64,000 bases of DNA from Rhodospirillaceae bacterium (lineage in GTDB: Bacteria; Pseudomonadota; Alphaproteobacteria; Rhodospirillales; JABHCV01): contig JABHGV010000027.1 of assembly GCA_018671895.1 (NCBI GenBank), positions 1 through 64,000 on the forward strand, in the 5' to 3' direction. The position numbers and the translations under genes were made by a program. Of the stretch, positions 13,897 to 19,179 are shown in pieces. How positions within the stretch are numbered: the stretch's first letter is position 1; every line of letters begins with the position of its first letter. Below the pieces are notes generated by a model, which searched no databases, was not told the DNA's origin, and saw only the letters and a program-made list of their open reading frames with translations.

Positions 13897-15129
13897 CTAT
13901 AAAAGCCCTTTCCGACGCATTTTTTCCAGTTCATCGGCATCCATATCGAGCAGTTCGGAGAGCACTTCGTCGGTGTGCTGACCCAACGTCGGCGGCGGCC
14001 TGCGATAGCTGACCGGGGTTTCCGACATGCCGATGGGACTGGCGATTAAATCGACGGACCCGGCCAGATCATGGGGCATATTGATTTTCATGCCGCGATG
14101 GACGACTTGCGGGTCTTCGAACACCTGGGCAATGGTGTTAACCGGCCCCACCGGCACCCCCAGTTCCGCCAGACCATCGAGCCAATGACGGCTGGCCTTG
14201 GTTTTCAGGACCGGAACCAATAGAGCAATCAAAGCCTCGCGATTGATAATGCGCTGGGCGTTGGTGTTGAAGCGGTCATCGTCGGCCAGGTCGGAGACCC
14301 CGGCAAAGTCACAGAACCGCTGGAACTGGGCATCGTTGCCGACGGCCAGAATAAAATGCCCGTCGGCAGTTTCGAACAACTGATACGGCACGATATTGGA
14401 ATGCGCATTGCCGCGTCGGTGCGGCACCTCGCCCGAGGTCAGATAATTCAGCCCCTCGTTGACCAGCCATGATACTTGAGAATCGAGCAGCGCCAGATCG
14501 ATGGATTGTCCCTTGCCGCCCAAGTCGCGATGACGGACGGCGGCCAGGATCGAGATGCACGCATACATGCCGCACATGACGTCGGCAACACCGACACCGA
14601 TTTTCATCGGTGCGCCGTCAGGCTCGCCGGTAATGCTCATCACACCGCCCATGGCTTGCGCCAGATAATCGTACCCGGCCTGTGGCGCATATGGGCCGGT
14701 CTGCCCGAAGCCGGTGATTGAGCAATAGATCAGGCCGGGGAATTCGTCTTTTAACTGGTCATAGGACAGGCCGTATTTGGCCAGCCCCCCGACCTTGAAG
14801 TTCTCGACCAGAATGTCGCATTTCCCGAGCAGCCGACGGACAAGGGCCTGACCGTCGGGGTGCGCGATATCGATGGCGACCGAGCGCTTGTTGCGATTGG
14901 CGGCCAGATAATAGGCACTTTCCGTAGTATCTGCGCCTTGCGCGTCTGTGGCATAGGGCGGCCCCCACTTGCGGGTATCGTCGCCAGCACCGGGGCGTTC
15001 GACCTTGATCACATCGGCACCTAAGTCGCCGAGCACCTGCGTCGCCGTCGGCCCGGCCAGAATACGGGTCAGATCAAGGATGCGCAGGCCGTGTAACGGG
15101 CCGGTGTTTTGCGGTTTATCGTCGGACAT
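13897..15129 (-). CDS. CaiB/BaiF-type (family III) CoA-transferase
   Basis: A 410-residue enzyme that moves CoA between acyl groups. The start GLRILDLTRILAGPTATQ, the CoA-contacting RNKRSVAIDI, and the catalytic Asp in LALLDSQVSW (about residue 178) are typical of the family. The substrate cannot be told: the family includes formyl-, carnitine-, succinyl- and itaconyl/mesaconyl-CoA transferases. The last gene in this leftward run, it starts 47 bases after the DoxX gene ends, so it may be read through from the bufferin-type operon, but a functional link is not indicated. Confidence 0.9.
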   Translation of the reverse strand: MSDDKPQNTGPLHGLRILDLTRILAGPTATQVLGDLGADVIKVERPGAGDDTRKWGPPYATDAQGADTTESAYYLAANRNKRSVAIDIAHPDGQALVRRLLGKCDILVENFKVGGLAKYGLSYDQLKDEFPGLIYCSITGFGQTGPYAPQAGYDYLAQAMGGVMSITGEPDGAPMKIGVGVADVMCGMYACISILAAVRHRDLGGKGQSIDLALLDSQVSWLVNEGLNYLTSGEVPHRRGNAHSNIVPYQLFETADGHFILAVGNDAQFQRFCDFAGVSDLADDDRFNTNAQRIINREALIALLVPVLKTKASRHWLDGLAELGVPVGPVNTIAQVFEDPQVVHRGMKINMPHDLAGSVDLIASPIGMSETPVSYRRPPPTLGQHTDEVLSELLDMDADELEKMRRKGLL

Positions 15130-15176: not shown

Positions 15177-15608
15177 TCAGCAGCGATTTCGGATCAGCTG
15201 GTCCAGCGACGCCTTGCCCGGGCCGTAGCTTAGAATCAGCAGCAGGGCGCTGGTCCACAACAGGTGGTCGGGCCAGCTCATGGGATAGACGAACAACTGA
15301 ATCACCGCCGTCATACCCAGCAGGCCGAGGGCACCAAGACGCGCACCGAGGCCGATGACCAGCATGATCGGGAAAACATGTTCACCGATGGTCGCCAGCA
15401 GGGCGGCGACTTCCGGGTCCAGCAGCGGCACCTTGTATTCTTCTTCAAACAGGAATTTGGTGTTGTCGGTAATGGTAAAGCCATCGACCTTGGTGCGGGC
15501 CGAGCGCCAGAACACACCGGCGACACCGAAGCGCGCAACCAGGGCGATCAGCCACATGGGCACGCTTTCCAGCCGCCCTATAACGTCGGCAATTGCTTTG
15601 TGGGTCAT
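15177..15608 (-). CDS. DoxX family membrane protein of the bufferin-type operon
   Basis: A 143-residue inner-membrane protein with about four hydrophobic helices and the DoxX features (LIALVARFGVAGVFWRSARTK near the start, LxPxxLLLGLGARLGA-like third helix, and YGPGKASLD at the C terminus). It is the fourth gene of the operon, five bases after the DUF2063 gene. DoxX proteins often accompany bufferin and related MNIO operons; the role is unclear, perhaps respiratory or redox. Assignment to the family is good; function is inferred from position. Confidence 0.85.
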   Translation of the reverse strand: MTHKAIADVIGRLESVPMWLIALVARFGVAGVFWRSARTKVDGFTITDNTKFLFEEEYKVPLLDPEVAALLATIGEHVFPIMLVIGLGARLGALGLLGMTAVIQLFVYPMSWPDHLLWTSALLLILSYGPGKASLDQLIRNRC

Positions 15609-15613
15609 TATTT

Positions 15614-16396
15614 TTAGTCTCCTTGGAAATAGCTGGTGAAAGTACCGCCGCCGATCAGATCGGCGATGGCGCTTTCAAAATCAAAATTTTCATCGACGGC
15701 AACGGCCCCGGCGTGCGCCTGGGTCAGATCACCACCGCTGATCAAAACAGACAGCAGGGCATGGACGCCGGGCTTGAGGATACGGACCTCGACATCCAGT
15801 GCGGGGCGGATGACCAACAGCGTGCAGCCACCGGCATCCAGATTGATGGTTTCGGGGTCGCCATCGCATGACTGATTGGCCTGCCAGATGGCGGCCGTTG
15901 GATAGTCCGATATCAACAGCCGGGCCGACGGATGCGGCGTCAGCTTCAAACGCCCAAGGCTTTCCACCGCAAGGCGTTGTAAATCATCCGCCGCCAGCGG
16001 TTTAGCATCGCCCGCATGGAAGGCTTCGTGCCACGCCCATTCCAGCCGCGCCACATCACCCAGATAGGGCAGACTTGCCGCCGGAGCAAAGCCGTCGAGG
16101 AAATCGCCGAAGCCGCCACCATAGAACAACAGGCTTGCGTGACGGGGTGGGCATCGCTGAATAAATTCGCGCGCAGTGGCGGCAAAGAATTCCTCGCCGA
16201 CCAGTCTGGCGACCACCGGAAACACGGCCGTGAGCGAGTCCGTTAATGTCAGAAACGTATTGTTGCGATGGATGGAAACTTTCTCTGCCGCTGTCAGGCC
16301 GCCGGTCGCAATCGCCGACTCGATTGTCGCGTTCGTTTGCCCGTCACCGAAGACGGCTTGCTTGAACGCCGTTTGCAATTCAGGCAACGCTGACAT
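15614..16396 (-). CDS. bufC: DUF2063 (BufC/HvfC) partner protein
   Basis: A 260-residue protein. The N-terminal DUF2063 domain (about residues 5-95) shows IHRNNTFLTLTDSLTAVFP and VARLVGEEFF; the C-terminal half is the variable HvfC-type domain. Such proteins partner DUF692 enzymes and are thought to bind the precursor and deliver it. The gene overlaps the DUF692 gene by 17 bases and is followed five bases later by doxX. The gene name follows the bufferin literature and operon order. Confidence 0.88.
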   Translation of the reverse strand: MSALPELQTAFKQAVFGDGQTNATIESAIATGGLTAAEKVSIHRNNTFLTLTDSLTAVFPVVARLVGEEFFAATAREFIQRCPPRHASLLFYGGGFGDFLDGFAPAASLPYLGDVARLEWAWHEAFHAGDAKPLAADDLQRLAVESLGRLKLTPHPSARLLISDYPTAAIWQANQSCDGDPETINLDAGGCTLLVIRPALDVEVRILKPGVHALLSVLISGGDLTQAHAGAVAVDENFDFESAIADLIGGGTFTSYFQGD

Positions 16397-17255
16397 GGTC
16401 GACCCCGCTTTGCATGAAGGTATTGGCCTTCGCCGCTTCGCTGAGCAACACCGACAGTTCCGGAATATCGGTGTCCCATTCGATCAGGCTGGGCACCGGG
16501 CCGGTACGGGAAAGTGCGCGGGAATACAGGGCCCAGACCGCATCGGTGACGACGGAACCATGATCGTCGATATGAATGTCGCGGCCTTCGTGGCGGGTGA
16601 TGCTGTGACCGGCCAGATGAATCTCGCCAACCGCATCGGGGTTGATGGCATCGATATAATCTTCCGGCCGGAAATCAAGATTGCGACTGGAAACAAAGAC
16701 GTTATTGACGTCCAGAAGCAGCCCGCAGCCGCTGCGCCTGGCCAGTTCGTTGAGGAAATCCGCCTCCGATATTTCGTTTATGTCATATGCCAGATAACTG
16801 GACGGGTTTTCAACCAGCACCTTGCGCCCGACGGCGTCCTGAAATGCAGCCACACGGTCAGTGACCAGATCCAGTGTCGCTTTCGTCAACGGTAATTCCA
16901 GAAGATCGTTCAGGAACACCCCGTCGGCCATGCACCACGACAGGTGTTCTGATACCAGCGCCGGGCGATAACGATCAACCACATCGCGAACGGCCCGAAG
17001 GTGTTCTTTGTTGAGCGGCGCAGATGAGCCGAGGGACAGGCCGACCCCGTGCATGGACAGGGGATAATGTTCGGCGATGGCTTCCAGATAATGATGAGTT
17101 GGGCCGCCGTCACCCATATAGTTTTCCGTATGCACCTCAAAAAAACCGAGGTCCGGGCGGGTGTCGATGATTTCTTTAAAGTGGACGGCCTTTAGCCCGA
17201 CCCCGACGGATGCCGGAGGCGGGCTAATGCTTGTTGGGCTATTGCTTGCCAACAT
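16380..17255 (-). CDS. bufB: MNIO (DUF692) family peptide-modifying enzyme
   Basis: A 291-residue TIM-barrel enzyme of the multinuclear non-heme iron oxidase family. Candidate metal ligands lie in EVHTENYMGDGG, MHGVGLSLG, VSEHLSW, VENPSSYL, LLLDVNNVFVS, EIHLAGH and the later DIHIDDHG and IEWDTD segments, all in the usual order. MNIOs modify cysteines of peptides; in bufferin systems they turn core Cys residues into sulfur-containing heterocycles that bind copper. ATG at 17255 is used; a TTG one codon earlier is possible. It starts 11 bases after the precursor gene ends. Confidence 0.92.
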   Translation of the reverse strand: MLASNSPTSISPPPASVGVGLKAVHFKEIIDTRPDLGFFEVHTENYMGDGGPTHHYLEAIAEHYPLSMHGVGLSLGSSAPLNKEHLRAVRDVVDRYRPALVSEHLSWCMADGVFLNDLLELPLTKATLDLVTDRVAAFQDAVGRKVLVENPSSYLAYDINEISEADFLNELARRSGCGLLLDVNNVFVSSRNLDFRPEDYIDAINPDAVGEIHLAGHSITRHEGRDIHIDDHGSVVTDAVWALYSRALSRTGPVPSLIEWDTDIPELSVLLSEAAKANTFMQSGVDHVSVA

Positions 17256-17266
17256 CAAGGGGGGAG

Positions 17267-17539
17267 CTAGCCGTTCTTCGGAGACAGGCTGGCGCCGACG
17301 ATTTTATCGCAGGTGCCCTTGGGCAGAATCAGATAGGCATCGGTCTGGGCATCTTTCTTGGACGAGCCAGCGCACGAGCCATTGGCGGTAACGCAATCGT
17401 TCTTGCCAGCCTTGGCAACGCCGTAGCATTTTTCTTTCTCTCCGGCGGCTTGGGCCTTTTCGGCGACAGCCATCGTCAAGGCCATGGCCATGGCAGAAGC
17501 AATCAGAAGGGCTGGTTTTTTCAGGCTTTTTTCACGCAT
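17267..17539 (-). CDS. bufA: Bufferin-type precursor peptide (DUF2282/BufA1)
   Basis: A 90-residue precursor. A Sec signal peptide (hydrophobic ALLIASAMAMALTMAVA, likely cut after AQA) is followed by a core with four Cys in the DUF2282 pattern: EKCYGVAKAGKNDC, NGSC and PKGTC, ending in VGASL. In characterised bufferins the modified, exported product sequesters copper in the periplasm. This small gene leads the operon precursor-MNIO-DUF2063-DoxX, the canonical order. Copper itself is inferred from the family; other metals are possible. Confidence 0.9.
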   Translation of the reverse strand: MREKSLKKPALLIASAMAMALTMAVAEKAQAAGEKEKCYGVAKAGKNDCVTANGSCAGSSKKDAQTDAYLILPKGTCDKIVGASLSPKNG

Positions 17540-17618
17540 CAGTATGTTCTCCGAATTAAATAATGAAACAGAGCCTGAATATAGTCACGACCGGCGAGCA
17601 AAACCCATTCAACACGGC

Positions 17619-17632
17619 TCACATTTGTGTGA
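17619..17632. promoter_or_regulatory. Inverted repeat TCACA-N4-TGTGA between bufA and the Cys-rich gene
   Basis: A 14-base inverted repeat in the 171-base region between two divergent genes for exported Cys-rich proteins. It could be a shared operator. It is not a CRP site (that order is TGTGA then TCACA), and no known copper-regulator box was recognised. Confidence 0.35.
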
Positions 17633-17710: not shown

Positions 17711-18016
17711 ATGCCAAGCCGACGCATGATTATCCTTGCCCTGTTCGGGCTGGTTTTCGCTTTCAACCTGACCCCTGATGCGCCTGCAAAGGCCGAAACC
17801 CTGATGCAGTGCATGACCAAGTGCATCCAGCACGAAGGCGGCAACGATGCGACCAACAAGGCAACCTGCAAATCCCGATGTGCGGCATCGACCGGTGTTG
17901 GCAAAGCGGCCAAGCCGCGCGATTGCATGGGCGAGTTCAAGGCCTGTAAAAAAGGTCAGAAATCCAGTTCTGCCGTATACAAGGCCTGCAAACAGAAACT
18001 GATGTCGTGTAAGTAA
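17711..18016 (+). CDS. Secreted cysteine-rich protein with twin CX3C and twin CX6C
   Basis: A 101-residue protein, unrecognised. ATG at 17711 follows AGGAG (17699-17703), and the preceding longer frame is unlikely. A signal peptide (MIILALFGLVFAFNL, cut after AKA) leaves about 72 residues with eight Cys: CMTKC, CKSRC, CMGEFKAC and CKQKLMSC, that is, two CX3C pairs then two CX6C pairs, in a Lys-rich, strongly basic setting. Twin CX3C pairs form disulfide-linked helical hairpins in other proteins; metal binding is also possible. It is divergent from the bufferin-type operon, sharing its upstream region, so joint regulation is plausible. Confidence 0.75.
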   Translation: MPSRRMIILALFGLVFAFNLTPDAPAKAETLMQCMTKCIQHEGGNDATNKATCKSRCAASTGVGKAAKPRDCMGEFKACKKGQKSSSAVYKACKQKLMSCK

Positions 18017-18102: not shown

Positions 18103-18249
18103 ATTCGCACTGATGCACCGACGTTCCCATAACCACGGGCGATTATCCAGACGCAATGACCGCCGCCAGTTACACGGATTTGTTATTTGAAGCGCGACGC
18201 CGCACCCCTTAAACACTATGGTGTGAACAATAAACAAGACAGGACCTGC

Positions 18250-19179
18250 ATGCCAGAGCCCCTTAAATTCAGCGACCCCGATACCACAGCCAAGGGCGAG
18301 GCCAGGGCCGTTGTCGCCCTGACCCACCTGAAAACCTTGTGGTTCAATACAGGCAGTCTGTGCAACATCGAATGCCTAAACTGCTATATGGACTCCTCGC
18401 CCAAGAACGACGCGCTGGCCTATATCAGCACGCGCGAGGTCAGCGATTATCTGGACCAGATCGAGGCCGAGGGCCTGCCGGTCGAGGAAATCGCCTTTAC
18501 CGGCGGCGAGCCGTTCATGAACAAGGCACTGCCCGATATGCTGGCGGACGTTCTGGGGCGCGGCTATCGGGCGCTGGTGCTGACCAATGCCATGAAGCCG
18601 CTCAACCATCGCCGCGGGCAGTTGCTCGACCTGAAGACCCAATACGGCGACAAACTGGCGCTCAGGGTTTCCATCGACCATTACACGCCGGAAAAACACG
18701 AAGACGTGCGTGGCACCGACACCTGGACGCCGATGCTGGACGAACTGACATGGCTGGCGGAAAACAAGTTCAATCTGGCCATCGCCGGACGCACCTTGTG
18801 GAACGAAGACGAAGCGACGGCGCGCACCGGATACGCCGCCTTGTTTGCGGCCGAGAATATCCCTGTCGATGCCAACGACCCCGCAGCCCTGGTACTGTTT
18901 CCGGAAATGGACGGCGGCATTGACGTGCCGGAGATCACTGTGCAGTGCTGGGACATCCTGGGTGTCGCACCGGAAACCATGATGTGCGCCACATCGCGTA
19001 TGATCATCAAGCGCGGCGGTGACGACAAACCGGTTGTCGTGCCGTGCACCCTGCTGCCCTATGACCCTGCATTTGAGCTTGGACACGATCTTGCCGGGTC
19101 AACCACATCGGTGAAGCTGAACCATCCCCACTGTGCCAAATTCTGTGTACTGGGCGGCGCGTCGTGCAGCGTCGGCTGA
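18250..19179 (+). CDS. Radical SAM protein, unknown substrate
   Basis: A 309-residue protein. The 4Fe-4S/SAM motif CNIECLNC (C-x3-C-x2-C) is near residue 39, followed by FTGGEPFMN, the SAM-binding GGE motif, near residue 83. The C-terminal part has extra Cys residues (VPCTLLPYD, HPHCAKFCVLGGASC), which could hold an auxiliary cluster as in SPASM-type peptide-modifying enzymes, though the pattern is short. No precursor peptide gene is evident beside it, and it stands between tRNA-Gly and an OmpA-like gene. ATG at 18250 is preferred to the longer frame from 18187. Function unknown. Confidence 0.85.
   Translation: MPEPLKFSDPDTTAKGEARAVVALTHLKTLWFNTGSLCNIECLNCYMDSSPKNDALAYISTREVSDYLDQIEAEGLPVEEIAFTGGEPFMNKALPDMLADVLGRGYRALVLTNAMKPLNHRRGQLLDLKTQYGDKLALRVSIDHYTPEKHEDVRGTDTWTPMLDELTWLAENKFNLAIAGRTLWNEDEATARTGYAALFAAENIPVDANDPAALVLFPEMDGGIDVPEITVQCWDILGVAPETMMCATSRMIIKRGGDDKPVVVPCTLLPYDPAFELGHDLAGSTTSVKLNHPHCAKFCVLGGASCSVG

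Follow-up and report, generated by a model that had tools for sequence, protein, structure and literature searches.

The window, a 64,000-nucleotide stretch of a Rhodospirillaceae bacterium (GCA_018671895.1, contig JABHGV010000027.1, positions 1 to 64,000 of the forward strand), carries on its minus strand, between 15177 and 17539, the genes bufA, bufB, bufC and doxX, transcribed in that order, and upstream of them the palindrome TCAC-N6-GTGA (Table 1). All four proteins exceed the Pfam gathering cut-offs, and the initial annotation of this region as a complete bufferin-type operon, with a precursor, an MNIO enzyme, a DUF2063 partner and DoxX, is upheld by these matches. The tight order that it described also holds, but not overlaps throughout: there is one overlap, of 17 nt between bufB and bufC (16380–16396), and there are two short gaps, of 11 nt from the bufA stop to the bufB ATG and of 5 nt between bufC and doxX. 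The start of bufB was taken as the ATG at 17255; the list of open reading frames has a TTG at 17258. The operon is a further member of a large published family, and its only unexpected feature is a control element that is independent of SigF.

Table 1. Features of the bufferin operon and of its surroundings (window coordinates; aa, amino acids).
Feature	Position	Strand	Description
bufA	17267-17539	minus	90 aa; DUF2282/Buf1 precursor; PF10048, E=2.2e-22, 79.2 bits (cut-off 22.4)
bufB	16380-17255	minus	291 aa; MNIO (DUF692) maturase; PF05114 MbnB_TglH_ChrH, E=2.1e-101
bufC	15614-16396	minus	260 aa; DUF2063 + RRE partner; PF09836, E=1.7e-21
doxX	15177-15608	minus	143 aa; DoxX-family membrane protein; PF07681, E=1.9e-16
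Palindrome TCACACAAATGTGA	17619-17632	none	sequence read on the minus strand; candidate operator, 93 nt before bufA start
Possible extended site TCAC-N6-GTGA-N6-TTGA	17609-17632	minus	pattern has 7 matches in 2.5 Mb, reversed control 2
CoA-transferase family III gene	13897-15129	minus	47 nt downstream of doxX, same direction
Cysteine-rich protein gene	17711-18016	plus	divergent; 101 aa, probably exported
Radical SAM protein gene	18187-19179	plus	below all curated NCBIfam cut-offs

BufB passes the curated NCBIfam profile MNIO_BufB (NF050167, 'bufferin maturase') with 372.9 bits against a cut-off of 310, and aligns to PDB entry 3bww (2e-37), TglH and MbnB. No variation was seen among 108 relatives at its metal-site residues H69, H104, E149, D182, N185, H213, D230, H232 and E259, and these residues include the DVNN and D-x-H motifs. 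The same motifs hold residues that have been demonstrated as essential in HvfB (PMC13419390). The AlphaFold2 model of BufC (mean pLDDT 93) has its best solved matches in TglI (8hci, 8hi7) and NGO1945 (3dee), and the protein is accordingly modelled as having the DUF2063-RRE partner fold (PME-type 1). The pairing of an MNIO enzyme with a DUF2063 partner, proposed from the letters of the DNA, is borne out by both proteins.

The precursor BufA contains four cysteines (C38, C49, C56 and C77), which are invariant in the aligned precursors of 95 relatives; together with the PF10048 match this confirms the predicted four-cysteine precursor. Around the cysteines the protein follows the family pattern, namely EKCYG, ND-C (NDC), SCAG and G-x-C (GTC). 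As the initial annotation remarked, its sequence is not that of the characterised precursors; the difference is nevertheless not notable, since cysteines and surrounding motifs follow the family, and is ordinary family variation. The N-terminus, read by eye (KK, a hydrophobic stretch, AQA/A), is a putative and likely Sec signal peptide. Against the BufA2-type (Buf2) profile NF050166 the protein scores 28 bits, below the cut-off of 60, and it has four cysteines, not six. The Caulobacter peptide carries its modifications on the two central cysteines and a disulfide between the outer pair (PMC12452194); by homology, BufA would be modified at its central cysteines and have its outer ones paired. 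A search of solved structures with the bufA and bufC sequences gave no useful match.

With BufB as the query, named genomes were scanned for related loci; of the 80 obtained, 71 have the complete A-B-C-DoxX order and 7 more have A-B-C. Among 60 related genomes, the 23 that have DUF2282 are also the 23 that have MNIO, and DUF2282 occurred in 117 of 317 genomes of the order. The shared order at 71 of 80 loci and this co-occurrence argue that the gene arrangement is not due to chance. By every sequence criterion testable, the assignment of the operon to the Buf1 (DUF2282) bufferins is supported.

The bufferin operons of Caulobacter are driven by SigF through the promoter motif GTAACC-N16-CGAA (PMC3511200), and the Caulobacter homologues are copper-induced through SigF (PMC8224329). 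Upstream of bufA the strict motif is present in 52 of 104 related regions, and a looser form in 57 against 1.6 in shuffles. It was not found upstream of the window's bufA, nor was a gene for the anti-sigma factor NrsF found in the source genome, and a scan for a sigma-70 promoter gave no match. With neither promoter motif nor nrsF, the operon lies outside the SigF/NrsF-controlled subset of Buf1.

The palindrome was selected by an unbiased inverted-repeat search in a first set of 51 upstream regions without the SigF motif, 13 of which contain TCAC-N6-GTGA against 0.3 expected; it lies upstream of no first-set region bearing the strict SigF motif. A further set came from an order-level search: upstream regions of genomes outside the first set, together with the loci that the search itself returned, amounted to 81 regions, or 70 after removal of near-duplicates. 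Here the palindrome was present in 30 of 62 SigF-less regions and in none of the 8 with a SigF promoter (shuffles 0.24; reversed pattern 0 of 70). Over both sets the palindrome and the SigF promoter are mutually exclusive (Fisher 4e-10); these numbers overstate independence, the genomes being relatives of one another and some of them belonging to genera already represented in the first set. The flanking positions just inside the palindrome, which had not been selected for, are R in 96% and Y in 87% of cases, while the inner 4 nt vary freely and the distance to the start codon varies. With a matrix trained on relatives only, this site scores highest of the 127,946 positions in the window, with a lead of about 12 bits. 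No description of a TCAC-N6-GTGA site was found in the literature searched, a search thin in subscription papers. From this pattern of conservation we infer that a regulator binds the palindrome, possibly in response to metal.

The source genome has one DUF2282 gene and two MNIO genes. The second of these lies about 51 kb from the Buf1 operon on the same contig, outside the window (C97:66792-70571, L001), in a Buf2 operon with a six-cysteine BufA2 precursor (92.2 bits, cut-off 60), an MNIO enzyme and a DUF2063 partner. Located 106 nt upstream of it is the sequence TCAC-N6-GTTA-N6-GTGA (C97:69527-69550), similar to the extended Buf1 site; its matrix score is equalled by 8 window positions, and the site is weak and partly circular because the GTTA half-site was allowed after the Buf2 site had been seen. 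In two related genomes (L262, 4334-6900; L263, 2264-6500) divergent Buf1 and Buf2 operons are separated by a shared intergenic region that contains a single TCAC-N6-GTGA, and in G049 and G031 each of the two operons has the palindrome upstream. Buf2 operons appear from these cases to share the palindrome. Two other genes of the source genome may be mentioned here: a cytochrome c gene converges on the Buf2 operon, and beside this operon a MASE10-HD signalling protein is encoded, with TCACR-N4-YGTGA about 40 nt upstream (C97:65893-65906, L159), a site of which the genome has only three.

The reading that we prefer for the locus as a whole, at a probability of roughly 0.88, is that of a canonical Buf1 copper-buffering operon controlled in trans at the palindrome instead of by SigF/NrsF. 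Several observations weigh against it. The sites are not fully independent, as the genomes are related; the palindrome is missing in about half of the SigF-less operons; in five of six genomes its core is as frequent genome-wide as the reversed control or slightly more so (3 sites against 3 in the source genome), with only G190 clearly above (11 against 1); no regulator gene was found to recur beside the palindrome-bearing operons; and no copper gene was recognised adjoining the operon. The core was rejected as a genome-wide regulon marker on account of its little excess over the reversed control in those five genomes; the lack of enrichment fits a very small regulon and adds no support.

Relatedness of the genomes, the failure to find a regulator gene nearby and the lack of genome-wide enrichment in most genomes speak for an alternative, in which TCAC-N6-GTGA would be a promoter or RNA element, or would be kept by shared ancestry. 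This explanation is rather unlikely: the inner 4 nt are free while the palindrome and its unselected R and Y positions are kept, the spacing to the start codon is not fixed, in two genomes a lone copy separates the divergent Buf1 operon from the Buf2 operon, and the palindrome excludes the SigF promoter. If a regulator does bind there, it would act in trans, since no gene for one was seen repeatedly alongside the operons. On balance we lean towards the view that an undescribed trans-acting regulator controls about half of the sampled SigF-less Buf1 operons in the order, and Buf2 operons as well, through TCACR-N4-YGTGA. This would constitute a second control, independent of extracytoplasmic function (ECF) sigma factors, coupling both peptide types.

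The products of homologous Buf1 operons are exported 5-thiooxazole copper-buffering peptides (PMC12452194, PMC13097082). By analogy with them, BufA would be made under metal stress, probably by copper, the operon being switched on by the trans-acting regulator at TCAC-N6-GTGA and not by SigF/NrsF. Before export BufB, guided by BufC, would oxidise C49 and C56 to 5-thiooxazoles; the Sec pathway would then export the peptide, a C38–C77 disulfide would form, and the product would sequester periplasmic copper, with DoxX in an accessory membrane role. The heterocycle chemistry, the disulfide, export and copper binding are all ascribed to BufA on the strength of its homologues. The main target of the bufferin-like peptide might instead be another soft metal (gold, silver, cadmium or mercury), or oxidative or sulfur stress. 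Responses to gold, silver, chromate or cadmium are known from related operons (PMC5413113, PMC8224329, PMC3511200), MerC-Buf1 fusions and DoxX suggest wider roles, and the recognised neighbours of the operon include no copper gene. We consider this improbable, as characterised thiooxazole peptides generally bind copper and the SigF regulon, which holds Buf1, protects Caulobacter from copper. The palindrome bears on the means by which bufferin-type operons lacking SigF/NrsF detect metal; its 14 bp offer a concrete bait for the regulator and would link Buf1 with Buf2 in a single response.

On the far side of the intergenic region upstream of bufA lies the divergent gene for the cysteine-rich protein, which has no Pfam or NCBIfam match and homologues in only four related genomes (five with the source genome). 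Its position, a likely signal peptide and its many cysteines could make it a second substrate or a partner of the system. This is very improbable, since three of the four relatives carrying it are without any MNIO (G001, G003, G004) and it is missing from most MNIO-bearing genomes; the gene was rejected as a partner by this distribution. On the other side of the operon, the neighbourhood with the CoA-transferase recurs in G016, where a homologue of 73% identity follows doxX directly; G190, too, has a CoA-transferase of this broad cluster close to its operon. Most operons have no such gene beside them, and for this reason it was rejected as a component of the system and is regarded as an inherited neighbour. 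A homologue of the radical SAM protein (63% identity) is encoded close to the G009 bufferin locus, and G190 has a protein of the same sequence cluster close to its own.

Among known systems, methanobactin (MbnABC) resembles the one described here in its distant MNIO homologue and as a copper ligand, but has no Sec signal and differs in partner and ring; with 53.8 bits BufB stays far below the MbnB cut-off of 325. In the captophorins, such as oxazolin (HvfA) and fontiphorin (FonA), an MNIO enzyme and a DUF2063 partner produce 5-thiooxazoles as in the Buf1 family (PMC13097082), whereas the EGKCG repeats of captophorins are absent from the window precursor. The operon is also not of the oxazolin/Hvf type, BufC reaching 23.9 bits with HvfC (cut-off 142) and DoxX 43.7 with HvfX (cut-off 80). 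The gig operon of Cupriavidus metallidurans and the GIG operon of Legionella pneumophila have a core homologous to that in the window (PMC5413113, PMC8224329) and, unlike it, have been described by gold or copper induction; the regulator of the Legionella operon is reported as unknown. The Buf1 operon of Caulobacter vibrioides/crescentus (CC3254-CC3257, CCNA_03363-03366) has a DUF2282 precursor, MNIO, DUF2063 partner and DoxX in the same order as here, and Caulobacter likewise combines Buf1 with a second MNIO bufferin operon in one genome. The operon in the window differs from it in having, instead of a SigF promoter and NrsF, the TCAC-N6-GTGA palindrome upstream.
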